NCBI GenBank assembly: GCA_016000085.1
Contig: JAECRT010000002.1
Coordinates: 7,636 to 71,635 of the forward strand
Reading direction: 5' to 3'
Length of the DNA stretch: 64,000 nt
From: Sphingomonadaceae bacterium
GTDB lineage: Bacteria > Pseudomonadota > Alphaproteobacteria > Sphingomonadales > Sphingomonadaceae
The notes under the pieces were generated by a model, which saw only the letters and a program-made list of their open reading frames with translations, was not told the DNA's origin and searched no databases. Shown here one piece after another: positions 13,806-43,896 of this stretch. Every line of letters starts with the position of its first letter. Position 1 is the first letter of the stretch. The position numbers and the translations under genes are program-made.

Positions 13806-14588
13806 ATGACGATCAAGCTCGAAGACCATGAAAGCGGCGCGAAATATCCGGGCGACTATGACGCGGCGCTGGCCGCGCTACAGCAGCGGCTGGCCAAGAT
13901 TCAAGTCGCCCACATCCTGCATAAACAGCGCAGCGTCATCCTGCTCGAAGGCTGGGACGCCGCGGGCAAGGGCGGTATCATCAAGCGGGTCACTGCCGAC
14001 TGGGATCCGCGTTATTATCAGGTCCATCCCATCGCCGCCCCGACCGAGATCGAGCGCGATCATCATTTCCTCTGGCGCTTCTGGACGCGCCTGCCGGGCG
14101 GGCGCAACATCGCACTCTTCGACCGCAGCTGGTATGGCCGGGTGCTGGTCGAACGGGTCGAAGGCTTCGCGAAAAAGGCCGAATGGAAGCGCGGCTATGA
14201 CGAAATCAACGCCTTCGAACAGCAATTGGCGGACGCGGGCACCCATTTCGTCAAGCTGTTCGTCCACATCACCCAGCAAACGCAGGACGAACAGCTGGCG
14301 CAGCGGCTCGACACCCCGTGGAAGCGGTGGAAGACCGGCGCGGACGATTATCGCAACCGGGCTAAGCGGGCCGACTATCTCGACGCGATGCACGCCATGT
14401 TCAAGAAAACCGACACCAAGCACGCGCCTTGGCACGTGATCGACAATAATAATCGAAAGGCTGGCCGGATCGCGGCGCTCACCTATGTCGCGGACCGGTT
14501 GGAAAAGCTGGTGCCGATGGATTTCCCACAAGCAGACCCCGCCGTGGTGAAGCTGGCGCGCGACGCCTTTGGCTATCGTCCGAAATGA
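13806..14588 (+). CDS. ppk2: Polyphosphate kinase 2 family protein (class I PPK2)
   Basis: PPK2 enzymes transfer phosphate between polyphosphate and nucleoside diphosphates. The 260 residues contain Walker A GWDAAGKGG (49-57) and Walker B ALFDRSWYGR (103-112). The lid and basic region RVEGFAKKAEWKRGYDEINAFE follows, then WKRWKTGADDYRNRAKRADYLDAMHAMFKKTDT and the conserved APWHVIDNNNRKAGR. A single domain of this length is the class I form; preference for ADP or GDP cannot be read. The gene follows the acyltransferase closely. The Pho-box-like site at 14615 lies after it and faces the next gene. Confidence 0.93.
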   Translation: MTIKLEDHESGAKYPGDYDAALAALQQRLAKIQVAHILHKQRSVILLEGWDAAGKGGIIKRVTADWDPRYYQVHPIAAPTEIERDHHFLWRFWTRLPGGRNIALFDRSWYGRVLVERVEGFAKKAEWKRGYDEINAFEQQLADAGTHFVKLFVHITQQTQDEQLAQRLDTPWKRWKTGADDYRNRAKRADYLDAMHAMFKKTDTKHAPWHVIDNNNRKAGRIAALTYVADRLEKLVPMDFPQADPAVVKLARDAFGYRPK

Positions 14589-14614
14589 TAGGAAAAGCCC
14601 TATAAAACAAGGGA

Positions 14615-14636
14615 TTGTAACAAAACCGTCACAAAA
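14615..14636 (+). promoter_or_regulatory. Candidate Pho box (PhoB-binding site)
   Basis: TTGTAAC-AAAA-CCGTCAC-AAAA gives the two 7-base half-sites with 4-base A-rich spacers typical of PhoB sites (consensus near CTGTCAT-N4-CTGTCAT). It lies 42 bases before the chemoreceptor start and 27 bases after the ppk2 stop. A -10 element downstream is not clear. Confidence 0.6.
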
Positions 14637-14677
14637 GCCTAACTGCCTGTTTACCATTTCTGGGCTAGGCGGGCACC

Positions 14678-15991
14678 ATGTTCGCCACCCCCATCCCCTT
14701 GCCCGACATGACGACGGTCGCCAGCCTGCCTCTGTCTGACGATACGCCCCATATTCCTCTGGGGAGGCCGCTCAGCGAGGCAGTCGATTGCTTTCAGCGC
14801 GATTCGACGCTGCGCCTGCTGCCGGTGGTCGATGCGGCGAACCGGCCCGTCGGCGCAATCTATGAGCGCGATATGCGCCGCATCTTATTCAACCCCTTCG
14901 GCCACGCGCTGCTGCGCAACCCCAGTTTCGGCGGGCGGCTCGACGATCATGTCCGCCCCTGCGCCAGTGCCGAGCGCACGACCGGCATAGAGGCGCTGGT
15001 TGACCTGTTCGCTGCGCAGGGCGAGGGGTGCGACGGACTGATCCTGCTGGACCGCGGTCGTTATGCGGGCGTGATAGGCGGCGCGCTGCTGCTGCGCCTG
15101 ACGGCGGAGCGCGACGCGCGCGTCGCGCTGGCGCGGGCCGAGCGGGTCGAACGAATCACCCATGAAAGCGCGGATTTCCGGCAGGATGTCGCGGCCCTCA
15201 TCGCCGATCTGGTGGCGATGGCCGACCAACTGTCGCGGCTCGCGACGCAGGCGGCGAACCGTGCCGCAGGCGATGGCGCAGATTCCGCCGCCATGGCGGT
15301 GGCGGCCGCCCAGACCGCGGATCGGTTGGCGGGCATTGCGGCGGGCGGCGCGGAACTGGGACAATTATTCGCGACGATGGAGGATGAGGCGCGCGACGCA
15401 GGCGCGGCGATTCGCGATGCCGCCGCGCGCAGCCGCTCCGGTGCGCAAAACAGCGAGGCGCTCCGCACCGAGGCGGATGGCATTGGCGAAGTCGTGGCCC
15501 TGATCGATGCGATCGCCCGCGCCACCTCCATGCTCGCGCTCAACGCCGGGATCGAAGCAGCCCGTGCGGGTGAAGCGGGGCAGGGCTTTGCCGTGGTCGC
15601 TCGCGAAGTCCAGATGCTGGCCGGGCAGACCCGCGACGCCGCCGCTGGTATCGCGGGGCGGATCGACCATATCCGTGCCACCATCGGCCATGTCGCGGCC
15701 AGCCATGCCCATATCGACGCCACAATGACGCGCGCGGACCGGCTGTCCGCAGCCCTGTTCGATGCGATGGCACGGCAGAGCGCCTTCAGCCGCACGATTG
15801 CCGACAGCGTCACCGAAGCGGGATCATCTAGCGACCATATCCGTACCGGGGCGCGCCAGATCAGCGACAATGCGCAGGCGACGGCGCTGGGCGCTCAGGC
15901 CATGCGCGAGGTGGCCGACCGGCTGGCGGGCGAAGCGCACCGCCTGGAAGCGCGCGCAGGCGGCTTCATCGCCGCGATCCGCGCCGCCTGA
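14678..15991 (+). CDS. Soluble methyl-accepting chemotaxis-type protein with CBS-like sensor
   Basis: A 437-residue protein has no membrane segment or signal peptide. Residues about 25-155 look like a tandem CBS-type pair: [24 protein letters not shown], then [24 protein letters not shown]. Long alanine-rich helices follow. The MCP hairpin tip is unmistakable at about residues 280-325 ([20 protein letters not shown], then [20 protein letters not shown]). So it should signal to CheA/CheW or act as a cytoplasmic scaffold. The usual C-terminal CheR-tether pentapeptide is absent. No che genes are adjacent. The upstream site suggests control by phosphate starvation. Confidence 0.85.
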
Positions 15992-16099: not shown

Positions 16100-16285
16100 A
16101 TGCTCGTCATGTTCGTCGGCACCGACCGCACCCAGACCGCGGTCAATCCGGGGCAAGTCACCTTCGTCTCGTCGGTCAGTGACGGCACCCGCATCCGCTT
16201 TGGCGAAGGGCGCAGCGTCACAGTTACCGAACCGATCGACGCCGTGCTCGACAGTCTCAATCGGGCGTTGCGACCGCACGAATAG
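16100..16285 (+). CDS. Small FlbD-like conserved protein
   Basis: A 61-residue protein begins at ATG 16100, preceded by AAGGAGAGGA. Its plan of short beta strands and a final helix (NPGQVTFVSSVSDGTRIRFGEGRSVTVTEPIDAVLDSLNRAL) resembles the small FlbD-type proteins, in which a residue-level setpoint is followed by a V-x-E-x-hydrophobic helix. That resemblance is by eye and need not mean a flagellar role, although the gene follows a chemoreceptor. The function is unknown. Confidence 0.65.
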   Translation: MLVMFVGTDRTQTAVNPGQVTFVSSVSDGTRIRFGEGRSVTVTEPIDAVLDSLNRALRPHE

Positions 16286-16413
16286 CGGAAAACAAAAGAT
16301 CATCAGAGCATAGGCGGTCGGGCCGGTTCCATCCGGTCCGCTTCCACCTGTTTCCTTGGCGCGACACGGGGCGTCGTCAGCGCGGCCCAAGGCGTCGAGG
16401 GCCGGTCGACGAA

Positions 16414-18558: not shown

Positions 18559-19710
18559 ATGGCGATGGATGATCTCGACTGCGACCTCGCAATTCTGGGC
18601 GGAGGCCTGTCTGGCGGCCTGATCGCACTGGCCTTCGCCGCGAAACGCCCCGACGTCCGTCTGTTGCTGATCGAAAAGGGCGAACGGCCCGGTGGCAACC
18701 ATATCTGGTCCTTCTTCGACGGCGACGTCGCGCCGCAGGACCGCTGGCTGATCGATCCCCTGATCGCGCAACGCTGGCCACAGGGGCACGCGGTGCGATT
18801 CCCCAACTTTACCCGGCAATTGCCGACCCCTTACAACAGCGCCAACAGCGTGCGGTTTTCTACCCACCTGGCCGCGACATTGGGCGATCGCCTCCTGACG
18901 TCGGCCGACGTTACCGCACTCACTTGCGACAGCGTGACCCTCGCCGACGGCCGCACGATCCGCGCCGGCGCGATCATCGATGCCCGAGGAACCGGCGACC
19001 TGTCGGCGCTGCGCTGCGGGTGGCAGAAGTTCGTCGGCCATCGCCTTCACCTCGATGCGCCCCACGGCATCGACCGCCCGATCATCATGGACGCCACCGT
19101 CGATCAGATCGACGGCTACCGTTTCGTCTATCTCTTGCCCCAGGATGATCGCACCATTTTTATCGAAGACACCTATTACAGCGATACCCCCGATCTTAAC
19201 GTTCCCGCCATCGACGCTCGCATCGCCGCCTATGCCCTGGCGAAGGGATGGCGCGGCGAAGTGATCCATCGCGAACAGGGGGTGCTGCCCGTGGTCCATG
19301 GCGGCGACTTCAATCTTTATTGGCCCGCAACCGATCCCATCGCGCGCGCCGGGGTGCGGGGCGGGCTGTTTCAGCCGATGACTGGCTATTCGTTGCCGGA
19401 CGCGATCCGATTCGCGCTCTGGCTGGTGGATCAGCCGCTCGATAATCTCGCCGCCGCGACCCGCGCCCGCGCCGCTGCCCACTGGCGCGATGGCGGCTAT
19501 TATCGTCTGCTTGGGAAAATGCTGTTCGGCGCCGCCGTTCCCGACCAGCGCTGGCGCATCTTCGCCCGCTTCTATCGCTTGGCGCCCGGCCTCATCCAGC
19601 GCTTCTATGCCGGGCGCTCGACCCTGGCTGACCGCATCCGCATCTTGTGCGGTCGGCCTCCTGTGCCCATAAGGAGCGCCATGCGAACATTGTGGAATCC
19701 GCGCACCTGA
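18559..19710 (+). CDS. crtY: Lycopene beta-cyclase (CrtY)
   Basis: CrtY cyclises the ends of lycopene to make beta-carotene, at the membrane, using FAD/NAD(P)H. The 383 residues have an N-terminal dinucleotide site (CDLAILGGGLSGGLIAL) and ERPGGNHIWSFFDGDV. The C-terminal signature is GVRGGLFQPMTGYSLPDAIRFALWL. ATG at 18559 or 18565 follows AGGA. It is the first gene of the crt operon and its stop codon TGA overlaps the crtI start. It is divergent from dmeR by 77 bases. The product would feed xanthophyll steps encoded elsewhere. Confidence 0.95.
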   Translation: MAMDDLDCDLAILGGGLSGGLIALAFAAKRPDVRLLLIEKGERPGGNHIWSFFDGDVAPQDRWLIDPLIAQRWPQGHAVRFPNFTRQLPTPYNSANSVRFSTHLAATLGDRLLTSADVTALTCDSVTLADGRTIRAGAIIDARGTGDLSALRCGWQKFVGHRLHLDAPHGIDRPIIMDATVDQIDGYRFVYLLPQDDRTIFIEDTYYSDTPDLNVPAIDARIAAYALAKGWRGEVIHREQGVLPVVHGGDFNLYWPATDPIARAGVRGGLFQPMTGYSLPDAIRFALWLVDQPLDNLAAATRARAAAHWRDGGYYRLLGKMLFGAAVPDQRWRIFARFYRLAPGLIQRFYAGRSTLADRIRILCGRPPVPIRSAMRTLWNPRT

Positions 19711-21197
19711 TGGACAGGAAAGCGATCGTTATTGGCGCGGGCTTTGGCGGCCTGGCGCTGGCCATCCGCCTCCAATCGGCGGGTATCGACACCACGCTGA
19801 TAGAAGCGCGGGATCGTCCGGGCGGGCGCGCCTATATGTGGGAAAAGGACGGCTTCACCTTCGACGCGGGGCCAACCGTCATCACCGATCCCGATTGTCT
19901 CGCTGAACTGTGGCGTTTGTCGGGGCATGACATGGCGCAGGACGTGACCCTTATGCCGGTCAGTCCGTTTTATCGCCTCAACTGGCGCGACGGCACCAAC
20001 TTCGACTATGGCAATGACGAAATCGCACTGCGGGCCGAAATCGCCAAGCTCGATCCGGCCGATGTCGCAGGCTATGACCGTTTCCTCGACTATGCCGACG
20101 GCGTGTTCGAGGAAGGCTATCGCAAGCTTGGCTCCGTCGCCTTTCTCGACTTCGCCTCGATGATCAAGGCCGCCCCTTCGCTGGCGAAATATCAGGCATG
20201 GCGATCGGTCTATTCGGTCGTCGCCTCCTATGTGAAGAATGAAAAGCTGCGCGAGGCGCTGAGTTTCCACACCTTGCTGGTCGGCGGCAATCCGATGAAG
20301 ACCAGCGCCATCTACGCCCTTATCCACAAGTTGGAGAAAGCGGGCGGCGTCTGGTTCGCCAAGGGCGGCACCAATCGGTTGGTGCAGGGGATGGCGACCC
20401 ATTTCGAGCGGTTGGGCGGAACCTTGCGGTTGGGCGACAAGGTCACGCGGATCGAAACCCATGGTGACCGCGTCACCGCCGTTCACACCGAATCGGGCTG
20501 GCGCGGGGAGGCGGACGCGGTCGCCAGCAACGCCGACCTGATGCACAGCTACCGCGATCTGCTCGGCCATCATGTCCGCGGACAGAAACAGGGCGACGCG
20601 CTCGCGCGCAAACGCTGGTCGCCCAGCCTGTTCGTGCTGCATTTCGGGATCAAGGGCAGCTGGCCCGGCATCCCGCACCATATGATCCTGTTCGGCCCGC
20701 GTTATGAAGGGCTGCTCACCGACATTTACGATCATGGCGTGCTGCCGCAGGATTTCTCGCTATATCTGCACCATCCCACCGTCACCGATCCGTCGATGGC
20801 GCCCGAAGGCCATTCGACCTTCTATGCGCTCGCGCCTGTGCCGCACATGGGCAAGCTGCCGATCGACTGGGACCAGTTTGCGCCCGCCTATGCCGAACGC
20901 ATATTGGACGAGATCCAGCACCGGCTGATCCCCGATATCCGTTCGCGCATCGTGACCCAGTTCCATTACGCGCCCAGCGATTTCGGCCGCGACCTTAATG
21001 CCCATCTGGGCAGCGCGTTCAGTCTGGAACCGCTGCTGACGCAAAGCGCCTGGTTCCGTGCGCATAATCGCGACGATGTCATTCCCAACCTCTATCTGGT
21101 AGGGGCGGGAACCCATCCCGGCGCGGGCATCCCCGGTGTCGTGGGCAGCGCGAAGGCGACCGCTGCGCTGATGGTGGACGATCTGAGCAGGATATGA
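19710..21197 (+). CDS. crtI: Phytoene desaturase (CrtI)
   Basis: CrtI introduces double bonds into phytoene to give lycopene. The 495 residues contain the FAD site AIVIGAGFGGLALAIRL, then GGRAYMWEKDGFTFDAGPTVIT. The C-terminal motif is NLYLVGAGTHPGAGIPGVVGSAKATAALM. ATG 19710 shares bases with the crtY stop (TGATG), so it is translationally coupled; a longer frame back to 19647 lies inside crtY. Four bases of overlap link it to the next gene. The number of desaturations cannot be read from sequence; four is usual. Confidence 0.97.
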   Translation: MDRKAIVIGAGFGGLALAIRLQSAGIDTTLIEARDRPGGRAYMWEKDGFTFDAGPTVITDPDCLAELWRLSGHDMAQDVTLMPVSPFYRLNWRDGTNFDYGNDEIALRAEIAKLDPADVAGYDRFLDYADGVFEEGYRKLGSVAFLDFASMIKAAPSLAKYQAWRSVYSVVASYVKNEKLREALSFHTLLVGGNPMKTSAIYALIHKLEKAGGVWFAKGGTNRLVQGMATHFERLGGTLRLGDKVTRIETHGDRVTAVHTESGWRGEADAVASNADLMHSYRDLLGHHVRGQKQGDALARKRWSPSLFVLHFGIKGSWPGIPHHMILFGPRYEGLLTDIYDHGVLPQDFSLYLHHPTVTDPSMAPEGHSTFYALAPVPHMGKLPIDWDQFAPAYAERILDEIQHRLIPDIRSRIVTQFHYAPSDFGRDLNAHLGSAFSLEPLLTQSAWFRAHNRDDVIPNLYLVGAGTHPGAGIPGVVGSAKATAALMVDDLSRI

Positions 21198-21778
21198 TGA
21201 AGAGACTAGCTATCTATTGTGGTTCGGCGACCCCGGCGGACCTGACCTATATCGATGCGGCGCGCCATGTCGGACGCACGCTGGCGCAGCGCGGCATCGG
21301 CGTTGTCTATGGCGGCGGGCGGTTGGGCCTGATGGGCGCCGTGGCTGACGCGGCGCTCGAAGCGGGTGGCGAAGTGATCGGCGTGATCCCTGAAGCGCTC
21401 GTCGGCGCGGAAGTGGCGCATCGCGGCTGCACGCAATTGCACGTCGTCCAGACCATGCATCAACGCAAGCAGCTGTTCACCGACCTGTCGGACGGTTTCG
21501 TGACCCTGCCGGGCGGTGTCGGCACGATGGACGAATTGTGGGAAGCGATCAGCTGGGCGCAACTGGGCTATCATGAAAAGCCCGTGGGCCTGCTCAACGT
21601 CGCGGGCTTTTATGACCAGCTTATCGGGTTCAACCGGCAGATGGTGGAGGCGGGCTTCATCCGCGCGCAGCACGCCGGCATCCTGATCCATGCCGACGAC
21701 ATAGACGATTTGCTGGACGCGATGACGGCCTATCAGCCGCATGAGACGATCTTCGCGATGAAGGCTGCGCGGCTCTGA
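21194..21778 (+). CDS. LOG-family (TIGR00730) nucleoside monophosphate phosphoribohydrolase
   Basis: This 194-residue Rossmann protein carries the LOG signature PGGVGTMDELWEAISWAQLG, with YGGGRLGLMGAVADAALEAGGEVIGVIPEAL upstream. Members cleave nucleoside 5'-monophosphates; in plants and some microbes this activates cytokinins. It starts inside crtI (ATGATG overlapping TGA) and ends 37 bases before crtB, so it is built into the carotenoid operon. No link to carotenoid chemistry is known to me. A nucleotide-salvage or regulatory role is a guess. Confidence 0.88.
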   Translation: MMKRLAIYCGSATPADLTYIDAARHVGRTLAQRGIGVVYGGGRLGLMGAVADAALEAGGEVIGVIPEALVGAEVAHRGCTQLHVVQTMHQRKQLFTDLSDGFVTLPGGVGTMDELWEAISWAQLGYHEKPVGLLNVAGFYDQLIGFNRQMVEAGFIRAQHAGILIHADDIDDLLDAMTAYQPHETIFAMKAARL

Positions 21779-21815
21779 CCGGATCGCCCGCTTGCGGGCC
21801 GAGGGAGGGGAGGGC

Positions 21816-22784
21816 ATGTCGGGCGATATGACCGATCACTCCCCCCTCGATCGCGCCGCGCTCGTCGCCCATGCCCGCGACAGCATCGCGCGCGGCTCCA
21901 AATCCTTCGCCATGGCGTCTACCCTGTTCGATCGGGAGACGCGCGAACGGGCATGGCTGCTCTATGCCTGGTGCCGCAAATGCGACGATATCGCCGACGG
22001 ACAGGATCATGGCGGCACGCTGACGGGCGTTCAGGACGGTCAGGCGCGGCTGTCGACCATGCGTGTGCTGACCGACATGGCCTTGCGCGGCGATCCAACC
22101 GGCGATCCGGCCTTTGACGGCTTCGGTATCGTCATGCGCGAATGTGCGATCCCCGCCCGTTATGCGCATGATCTGCTGGAGGGGTTTGCGCTCGACGCCC
22201 GCGACTGGCGGCCCCGCAGTCAGGATGACATGTTGCGTTATTCCTATCATGTGGCGGGCGCGGTTGGGTGCATGATGGCAGTGCTGATGGGCGTCGATCC
22301 ACGCGATGACGCGACGCTGGATCGCGCCTGCGACCTGGGGCTGGCCTTTCAGCTCGCCAATATCGCCCGCGACATCAGCGAGGATGAGGCGGCCGACCGT
22401 TGCTATCTGCCGGTCGAATGGCTGGTGGAAATGGATATCCCGCCCGGCGAGCATATGAAGCCATGGGTGCGGCCGCGTTTGGCGGAACTGGGCAAGCGCC
22501 TTGCCGACATGGCCGCCATTTATGAAGATAGCGCTCGCCATGGCACGGGTGCGCTGCCGCCGCGCGCGGCTTGGGCGGTGCTGGCCGCCGCGGGCATCTA
22601 TGGCGACATTGCCCGCGAAGTCGCGCGGCGCGGCGAGCATGCCTGGGATCATCGCGTCGTGACACCCCGGCGCGACAAGCTGGGCTGGGTTGCACGGGCG
22701 GGGCGACAAGTCATCGGCCGTGCGCGCCGCTGGCCGGGCGCAACGCAGCGCCCGGCAACGCTTTGGACTCGCCCCAGGCAATAG
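21816..22784 (+). CDS. crtB: Phytoene synthase (CrtB)
   Basis: CrtB condenses two geranylgeranyl diphosphates into phytoene. The 322-residue squalene/phytoene synthase family protein has the first aspartate motif YAWCRKCDDIADG and the second QLANIARDISEDEAADRCYLP. A characteristic AGGDIAREVARRG-like helix lies near the C-terminus (YGDIAREVARRGEHAWDHRV). The start at ATG 21816 follows GGGAGGGGAGG; ATG 21828 is an alternative. It closes the crtY-crtI-LOG-crtB operon. crtE and crtZ are not in the window. Confidence 0.95.
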   Translation: MSGDMTDHSPLDRAALVAHARDSIARGSKSFAMASTLFDRETRERAWLLYAWCRKCDDIADGQDHGGTLTGVQDGQARLSTMRVLTDMALRGDPTGDPAFDGFGIVMRECAIPARYAHDLLEGFALDARDWRPRSQDDMLRYSYHVAGAVGCMMAVLMGVDPRDDATLDRACDLGLAFQLANIARDISEDEAADRCYLPVEWLVEMDIPPGEHMKPWVRPRLAELGKRLADMAAIYEDSARHGTGALPPRAAWAVLAAAGIYGDIAREVARRGEHAWDHRVVTPRRDKLGWVARAGRQVIGRARRWPGATQRPATLWTRPRQ

Positions 22785-43093: not shown

Positions 43094-43896
43094 ACGGCTT
43101 GATGGCGGGAAAGCGTGGCCTCATCATGGGCCTGGCCAACGACAAGTCGCTGGCATGGGGTATCGCCAAGCAACTGCATGCCCAGGGCGCAGAACTGGCT
43201 TTTTCCTATCCGGGCGAACAGCTGGGCAAGCGGGTGAAACCGCTGGCGGAACAGCTTGGCTCGGACTTCACGATCGATTGCGACGTGACCGACATGGACC
43301 AGCTCGACGCCGCCTTCGCGCAGATTGAGGCGCGCTGGGGCCGACTGGACTTCCTGGTGCATGCGATTGGCTTTTCCGACAAGAATGAGCTGCGCGGCCT
43401 TTATGTCGATACCAGCCTCGATAATTTCCTGATGACCATGAACGTGTCTGCTTACAGTTTTGTGGCAGTCACGAAGCGCGCCCGTGCGCTGATGCCCGAT
43501 GGCGGCAGCATCCTGACGCTCAGCTATTATGGCGCGGAAAAGGTCATCCCTCACTATAATGTGATGGGCGTGGCCAAGGCGGCGCTGGAAACCAGCGTCA
43601 AATATCTGGCGATGGACCTTGGCCCGGAAAATATCCGCGTCAACGCGATCTCCGCCGGGCCGATCAAGACGCTGGCCGCCAGCGGCATCGGCGACTTCCG
43701 CTACATCCTCAAGTGGAACGAGTTCAACTCGCCGCTGCGCCGCAACGTCACGATCGACGATGTCGGCGGCGCGGGCCTCTATCTGCTGTCCGATCTGGCC
43801 AGCGGCGTGACGGGCGAAATCCATCATGTCGATGCGGGCTATAACGTCATCGGCATGAAGGCCGAGGACGCGCCGGACATCGTGCTCGACAAATGA
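43090..43896 (+). CDS. fabI: Enoyl-ACP reductase (NADH), FabI
   Basis: FabI does the last reduction in fatty-acid elongation. The 268-residue SDR protein has an N-terminal nucleotide site ([21 protein letters not shown]) and the catalytic Tyr-x6-Lys ([23 protein letters not shown]). [19 protein letters not shown] follows, typical of FabI. It overlaps the genes on both sides by four bases and so is coupled to YihY and aroC. The triclosan-binding pocket residues look ordinary. Confidence 0.96.

Follow-up and report, generated by a model that had tools for sequence, protein, structure and literature searches.

What controls a chemoreceptor that has no membrane segment, and what such a protein senses, are the questions raised by a locus in a 64,000-nucleotide stretch of Sphingomonadaceae DNA (the whole stretch analysed, here called the window), which comes from an assembly of 3.23 Mb that is 83% complete. 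An initial annotation correctly placed the receptor and its upstream region at 14590-15991, and proposed that a Pho-box-like site, a CBS-like N-terminus and a neighbouring polyphosphate kinase of the PPK2 family together provide a phosphate- or energy-sensing input to chemotaxis.

Architecture of the receptor

The receptor gene (14678..15991, + strand) begins with the ATG at 14678 and encodes a product of 437 aa. Pfam analysis identified an MCPsignal domain (PF00015) at residues 257-401 (E 5e-25; 88.7 bits, cut-off 34.6) and a first CBS motif (PF00571) at residues 20-70 (E 4e-7; 30.6 bits, cut-off 24); a second CBS motif was detected by fold alone, without a profile match, and completes a CBS pair at about residues 20-140. 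The AlphaFold2 model of the full-length protein showed the two CBS motifs, then a long helix, then the MCP hairpin (pLDDT 75, pTM 0.53), and the tip of the hairpin was conserved; the N-terminus modelled alone reached a pLDDT of 84 and a pTM of 0.76. The hydropathy scan found no membrane segment (maximum 19-residue mean 1.5). The intact hairpin without a membrane segment and the CBS-like N-terminus described in the initial annotation were thus confirmed by the Pfam matches, the hydropathy scan and the predicted CBS-pair fold. A periplasmic ligand-binding domain between membrane segments, as in CtpL and CtpH, was absent, there being no hydrophobic segment and a CBS pair in the model. All 43 aligned orthologues matched MCPsignal, and 41 of them matched CBS at E up to 0.001.

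Fold searches, Foldseek among them, showed that the best-matching solved folds for the N-terminus were CBS pairs, including AcuB with adenine nucleotides. Of the 1000 chains aligned to the N-terminus, 426 had a Z of at least 8, and the best among those listed were CBS pairs. The receptor shares the CBS-pair fold with AcuB (PDB 9qs7, 9s4v-9s52) and CBSX2, with 9qs7_B giving a Z of 14.4 and an rmsd of 4.2 over 134 residues; however, identity to these proteins was about 20%, the nucleotide motif is kept in part, and the pair is fused to an MCP hairpin. A sequence search of the PDB with the receptor returned weak matches alone (best E 0.018). The N-terminus may also resemble the CBS pairs of GGDEF/EAL proteins, a likeness on which nothing here rests.

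The nucleotide motif of CBS domains is T/S-x-x-D. At its position the first CBS motif of the receptor has Y62-E-R-D65, in which the Asp alone is kept, and the motif is gone from the second. By contrast with this erosion, a loop of 11 residues between the two CBS motifs was invariant or nearly so across 34 aligned sensors, which suggests that it has a specific function. An adenine nucleotide is a plausible ligand of the pair, though the motif is eroded. The same erosion would suit a receptor that serves some CheA output other than swimming, or a ligand-less scaffold with a structural CBS pair, and some genomes of the genus do have two or three CheA-family matches. The window's own genome, however, has one CheA match, clustered with CheW, a single-domain response regulator and CheB, and one FlhA match; with the constancy of the loop, this makes a scaffold or non-swimming role doubtful. 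Co-occurrence of the receptor with CheA and FlhA tests nothing here, because both families were found in all 61 genus genomes.

A sensor match was found in 45 of the 61 genus genomes (43 close, one divergent with 43% identity in G065, and one marginal in G068) and was missing from the other 16, so the receptor is dispensable. In an order-wide draw of 296 genomes, 33 genomes from 7 of 79 genera matched the sensor at E up to 1e-12. The peptide patterns used for named loci require ILFNPFGH or ALLRNPSFG and therefore understate the spread. The sensor profile also matched two longer frames, G094:C1:1712691 (610 aa) and G305:C1:20725 (646 aa), which are possibly other fusions of the same CBS pair. 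Weak matches to the CBS region occurred in G008, G010 and G069; the one in G008 was rejected, being a chloride channel with CBS domains of its own. The receptor orthologue of G035 (locus L024) has one in-frame stop after 53 codons and an intact promoter.

PhoB-box-like site and the PPK2 neighbour

Upstream of the receptor gene lies a PhoB-box-like pair of 11-bp direct repeats, TTGTAACAAAA CCGTCACAAAA (14615..14636, + strand), which is laid out as TTGTAAC at 14615-14621, AAAA, CCGTCAC at 14626-14632 and AAAA to 14636. It ends 42 bases before the ATG, as the initial annotation had it. The pattern YTGTMAYNNNNYYGTCAYNNNA had two matches in the 3.23-Mb genome, against none for the reversed control.

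The pst promoters of the same genus served for comparison. The pst operons were located via PhoU in 12 of 12 genomes searched, and the interval before pstS was used; it lies between a histidine kinase gene and a gene for a PBP_like_2 protein, which from their position we take to be phoR and pstS. All 12 intervals carried 11-bp direct repeats of the type TGTCATNAAA / TGMAAYCTGA / TGTCACAAAG. A half-site matrix was trained on these repeats alone (12 promoters, 20 distinct half-sites). The training was not wholly blind, because the pst boxes had first been located using a matrix built from receptor promoters.

In a scan of the window with the pst matrix (about 128,000 positions), the site at 14615 ranked first with a score of 24.9. 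The runner-up (20.7, at 43447) lies inside a listed open reading frame and was dropped. The promoter site also ranked first in 30/30 same-genus orthologue loci (about 4 kb each) and in 38/38 close named loci, that is, in 68/68 loci together, 17 promoters being present in both sets and counted twice. The 38 close named loci were mostly Sphingobium, with three MAGs labelled bacterium or Proteobacteria and one Novosphingobium. Among divergent loci the promoter site ranked first in 13 of the 18 named ones and, in other genera, in 23 of 25, with 19 of these 23 scoring above 15; a top-ranked box at the promoter was missing in the remaining 5/18 and 2/25, and some top-ranked sites of divergent loci scored low, at 7.6 to 12.5, near the best score found before ppk2 (10.8). 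Some loci in these collections, L192 among them, come from genomes already represented, and L193 resembles L076. Over 86 loci the best upstream score of receptor promoters had a median of 25.9 and a minimum of 3.5. Upstream of a second MCP gene, identified by Pfam MCPsignal, the same matrix found no Pho box (maximum 5.0 over 19 genomes).

The initial annotation had offered conservation of the half-sites upstream of orthologues as a test that could refute its Pho-box reading, and the outcome, from a pst-trained matrix and across genera, favours the site. On its sequence, the gene carries a PhoB box upstream and so counts as a predicted Pho-regulon member. OmpR-family sites resemble one another, and the 11-bp direct repeats might instead be read by another regulator of this family, such as ChvI, with a trigger other than phosphate; the variant TGTAAC of the first unit was indeed absent from the pst training set. 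However, the half-sites TGTCATCAAA, TGTCATGAAA, TGTCAC and TGAAAC are words of pst promoters, the last of them being frequent as the second half-site in other-genus loci. A related pattern, moreover, gave 8 matches in ten genomes (none in three of the ten), of which 6 were the receptor promoter and one of the other two precedes a gene for a phosphate-selective porin (Porin_O_P). Another OmpR-family regulator is therefore very unlikely to account for the box.

Elsewhere in the same genome, at about 1738-2397 of locus L112 (G000:C23), three PhoB-like repeat matches have as neighbours a small ORF, a TonB-dependent receptor and a protein of 576 aa that matches no Pfam family; this is possibly a Pho-regulon uptake locus.

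The gene directly upstream of the receptor (13806..14588, + strand) was assigned to PPK2 by Pfam (PF03976, E 1e-73; 247.9 bits, cut-off 22.3). It reached none of the listed NCBIfam cut-offs, the best match, below its cut-off, being the C-terminal half of polyphosphate:AMP phosphotransferase. It is a constant neighbour among close orthologues, and a role in receptor function is not established. Coordinates placed ppk2 next to the receptor gene in every one of the 43 genus genomes that have a close orthologue, but not in G065, whose orthologue is divergent; ppk2 lay directly upstream on the same strand in 30/30 same-genus and 38/38 close named loci. No divergent named locus (0/18) had ppk2 directly upstream, although L068 has a PPK2 homologue of 35% identity about 1 kb off, behind another ORF, and no close ppk2 was found within 1.5 kb in 25/25 other-genus loci. 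Neighbours varied among the nine divergent loci listed.

The gene ppk2 was present in 60 of 61 genus genomes, 15 of them without a sensor match. Of these 15, the five whose ppk2 has at least 75% identity were examined: in none of them was ppk2 followed by a receptor, and over the 400 bases beyond it the matrix scored at most 7.2. The box thus accompanies the receptor, and the adjacency of ppk2 and receptor is a trait of the lineage. Two of the receptor-less genomes (L134, L136) have, immediately after ppk2, the small gene that follows the receptor in the window; this conserved reading frame (16101-16286, about 61 aa) has no Pfam match.

The initial annotation regarded ppk2 and the receptor as one polyphosphate-sensing module with its input through PPK2, and their adjacency in all 43 close-orthologue genomes speaks for it. 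The pairing holds among these genomes and is lost in the divergent named loci, the other-genus loci and G065. The functional link did not stand: no strong Pho box was found in the 300 bases before ppk2 (68 loci; median 1.2, maximum 10.8), the receptor promoter is kept in other-genus loci that have no close ppk2 within 1.5 kb, and the five genomes examined have retained ppk2 while lacking both receptor and box. Such a module is most improbable, and the sites of the receptor promoter are, by sequence, independent of ppk2.

The CtrA-like element and the composite promoter

Behind the box, in about the -35 place, lies the element CTAA-N7-TTTACC (14639..14655, + strand), which was missed in the initial annotation. 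It is followed by a -10-like element, GCTAGG (14664..14669, + strand), a tentative assignment based on CTA/TTA-type elements seen by eye at a similar distance in many orthologue promoters; pst promoters have CTAG or CTAC in the -10-like position. Excerpts of two papers describe CtrA sites as TTAA-N7-TTAA, located near -35 when activating (PMC6180460, PMC9437464). The element resembles CtrA-activated alphaproteobacterial promoters in its TTAA-like half-sites, 7-base spacer and place near -35, and differs in that its half-sites are variants and a PhoB-like box lies directly upstream at a fixed distance. The half-sites were CTAA-N7-TTTA in close orthologues and TTAA-N7-TTTA in several other-genus loci, against the canonical TTAA-N7-TTAA; since they are variants, the element is called CtrA-like.

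In the first 30 aligned promoters, CTAA-N7-TTTAC stood behind the box (in one with an extra base), followed by the CTA/TTA-type -10-like element. The full motif was matched in 77 of 86 loci (17 promoters being present twice), and 75 of these 77 had the same spacing. The motif so counted tolerated one more base in the spacer than the form used later for the composite, and matched 60/69 distinct promoters. The motif behind the 86-locus count was written after the first promoter sets had been inspected. The composite of box and element with fixed spacing was found in 44/46 distinct close-orthologue promoters (misses L018 and L032), in 11/18 divergent named promoters (misses L068, L070, L072, L077, L078, L079 and L086) and in 21/24 distinct order-search promoters (misses L195, L196 and L199). 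The number of distinct close promoters was 51 or 46, depending on the length of string over which duplicates were recognised. No composite with fixed spacing occurred in 1.61 Mb strand-bases of control loci; this set runs from L096 to L157, with L127 and L129 left out, covers stretches of pst, che, flagellar and other genes that overlap in places, and is not a whole genome. As the composite motif was written after both the first sets and the other-genus loci had been inspected, the matrix result is the fairer test.

In all but two of the 30 same-genus loci (28 of 30) the start codon follows TTTAC after 27-29 bases, which predicts a leaderless or near-leaderless mRNA there; the distance was longer, by eye, in many other-genus loci.

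Related elements occurred at other chemotaxis genes. The cheA promoter carried TTAA-N7-TTAACC in 8/8 genomes examined, and the promoter of the second MCP gene carried [CA]TAA-N7-TTTAC in 17/19. In the window's own genome, the pattern YTAA-N7-TTWACCA was matched 8 times and its reversed control 4 times, which is a modest excess; three of the eight were the receptor, the second MCP gene and cheA. Of the rest, one lay in antisense next to a response regulator, and the others had unrelated genes nearby. The ChpT family of the CtrA phosphorelay (PF10090) was present in 10/10 genomes. The surroundings of flhA (14 stretches from 7 genomes) gave just 2 matches to CtrA-like patterns, so that the flagellar genes near flhA do not clearly support a CtrA reading. 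Before fliM, a CtrA-like stretch was considered and rejected: in 4 of 6 genomes it forms the last part of an open frame 206-238 codons long, and the pattern is matched in the other two alone, G019 and G010. Beyond these, no further CtrA-pattern match was found in the flhA stretches (14 loci, 7 genomes).

The receptor promoter shares with the same-genus pst promoters the half-site words and the 11-bp direct repeats. The pst promoters differ in having three half-sites, the last nearer the -10-like element, and no CtrA-like element was seen in them. By eye, the run of clear PhoB half-sites in the receptor promoter stops 11 bp, or one unit, farther upstream than that of pst promoters, so PhoB activation may differ or be absent. 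This arrangement is open to an account with PhoB alone, in which the promoter has three or four 11-bp half-sites and CTAA-N7-TTTACC is made of degenerate ones. The units do keep the 11-bp register, the third is placed, by eye, like the third pst half-site relative to the -10-like element, and CTAAC resembles TGTAAC. However, CTAA/ATAA-N7-TTTAC recurs at the second MCP gene, where no Pho box above 5.0 was found, cheA has an exact TTAA-N7-TTAACC, and in other genera the unit is often TTAAA, TTAAG or TTAGC, which leads away from TGTMAY. A promoter with PhoB sites alone is accordingly unlikely.

Proposed function and known systems

The explanation that we favour, and hold to be probable, is that the gene encodes a cytosolic chemoreceptor controlled by PhoB and probably by CtrA, which reads an internal signal through its CBS pair. 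Phosphate starvation, through PhoB~P, and the motility programme, probably through CtrA~P, would raise the amount of receptor in the array. The soluble receptor would join the CheA array, where its hairpin would control CheA. What the CBS pair reads would be a signal from inside the cell, for which adenine nucleotides and other small phosphorylated metabolites are the most plausible candidates, and in this way the phosphorus or energy state of the cell would bias its swimming. Two points weigh against this explanation and lower confidence in it slightly: the flagellar stretches, and the route by which the pst sites were found.

A stronger version is offered tentatively and is less than an even prospect: PhoB and CtrA, bound at their fixed distance, would act jointly, production of the soluble receptor would be confined to motile cells that run short of phosphate, and its CBS pair would sense the nucleotide or phosphorus state inside the cell. 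According to excerpts of one study of Caulobacter under phosphate starvation, CtrA stays high for the first four hours and soft-agar motility is slightly lower (PMC10723716); because CtrA stays high for that time in Caulobacter, joint action is conceivable early in starvation. If the version with joint action is true, sphingomonads would have a class of starvation-induced energy-taxis receptors, carried as a receptor-plus-promoter cassette in varied genomic places. The promoter is also a directly testable candidate for the joint use of one promoter by two regulators of the OmpR family at a set spacing, and the host genus is known for pollutant degradation.

TlpD of Helicobacter pylori is a cytosolic MCP that has no membrane segment, responds to an internal signal and has a sensor domain different from a CBS pair. 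The present receptor is like such TlpD-type proteins in having an MCP hairpin and no membrane segment.

Phosphate-regulated taxis is known for Pseudomonas receptors of external phosphate. Excerpts of two papers describe CtpL and CtpH of Pseudomonas aeruginosa as chemoreceptors for inorganic phosphate whose expression is up under phosphate limitation and whose periplasmic domains detect external phosphate, CtpH directly and CtpL through PstS (PMC4926252, PMC9864684). As far as these excerpts go, the likeness is a link between a chemoreceptor and phosphate limitation, predicted here from promoter sequence; the difference is that CtpL and CtpH sense externally in the periplasm, whereas the sphingomonad receptor is soluble with a CBS pair. 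Joint control by PhoB and CtrA would follow another logic, in which starvation adds an internal sensor to the array. The gene is best placed among chemoreceptors with a predicted phosphate-regulon promoter, as one of soluble CBS type. Among titles and abstract openings on PhoB, phosphate or CtrA with chemotaxis, on CBS or cytoplasmic chemoreceptors and on ChvI motifs, nothing on this gene was recognised.

Further along the window, a run of carotenoid genes occupies 18559-22784 and comprises genes for a lycopene cyclase, an amine-oxidase-family protein, which we take to be phytoene desaturase-like, a possible member of the lysine decarboxylase family, and a squalene/phytoene synthase.
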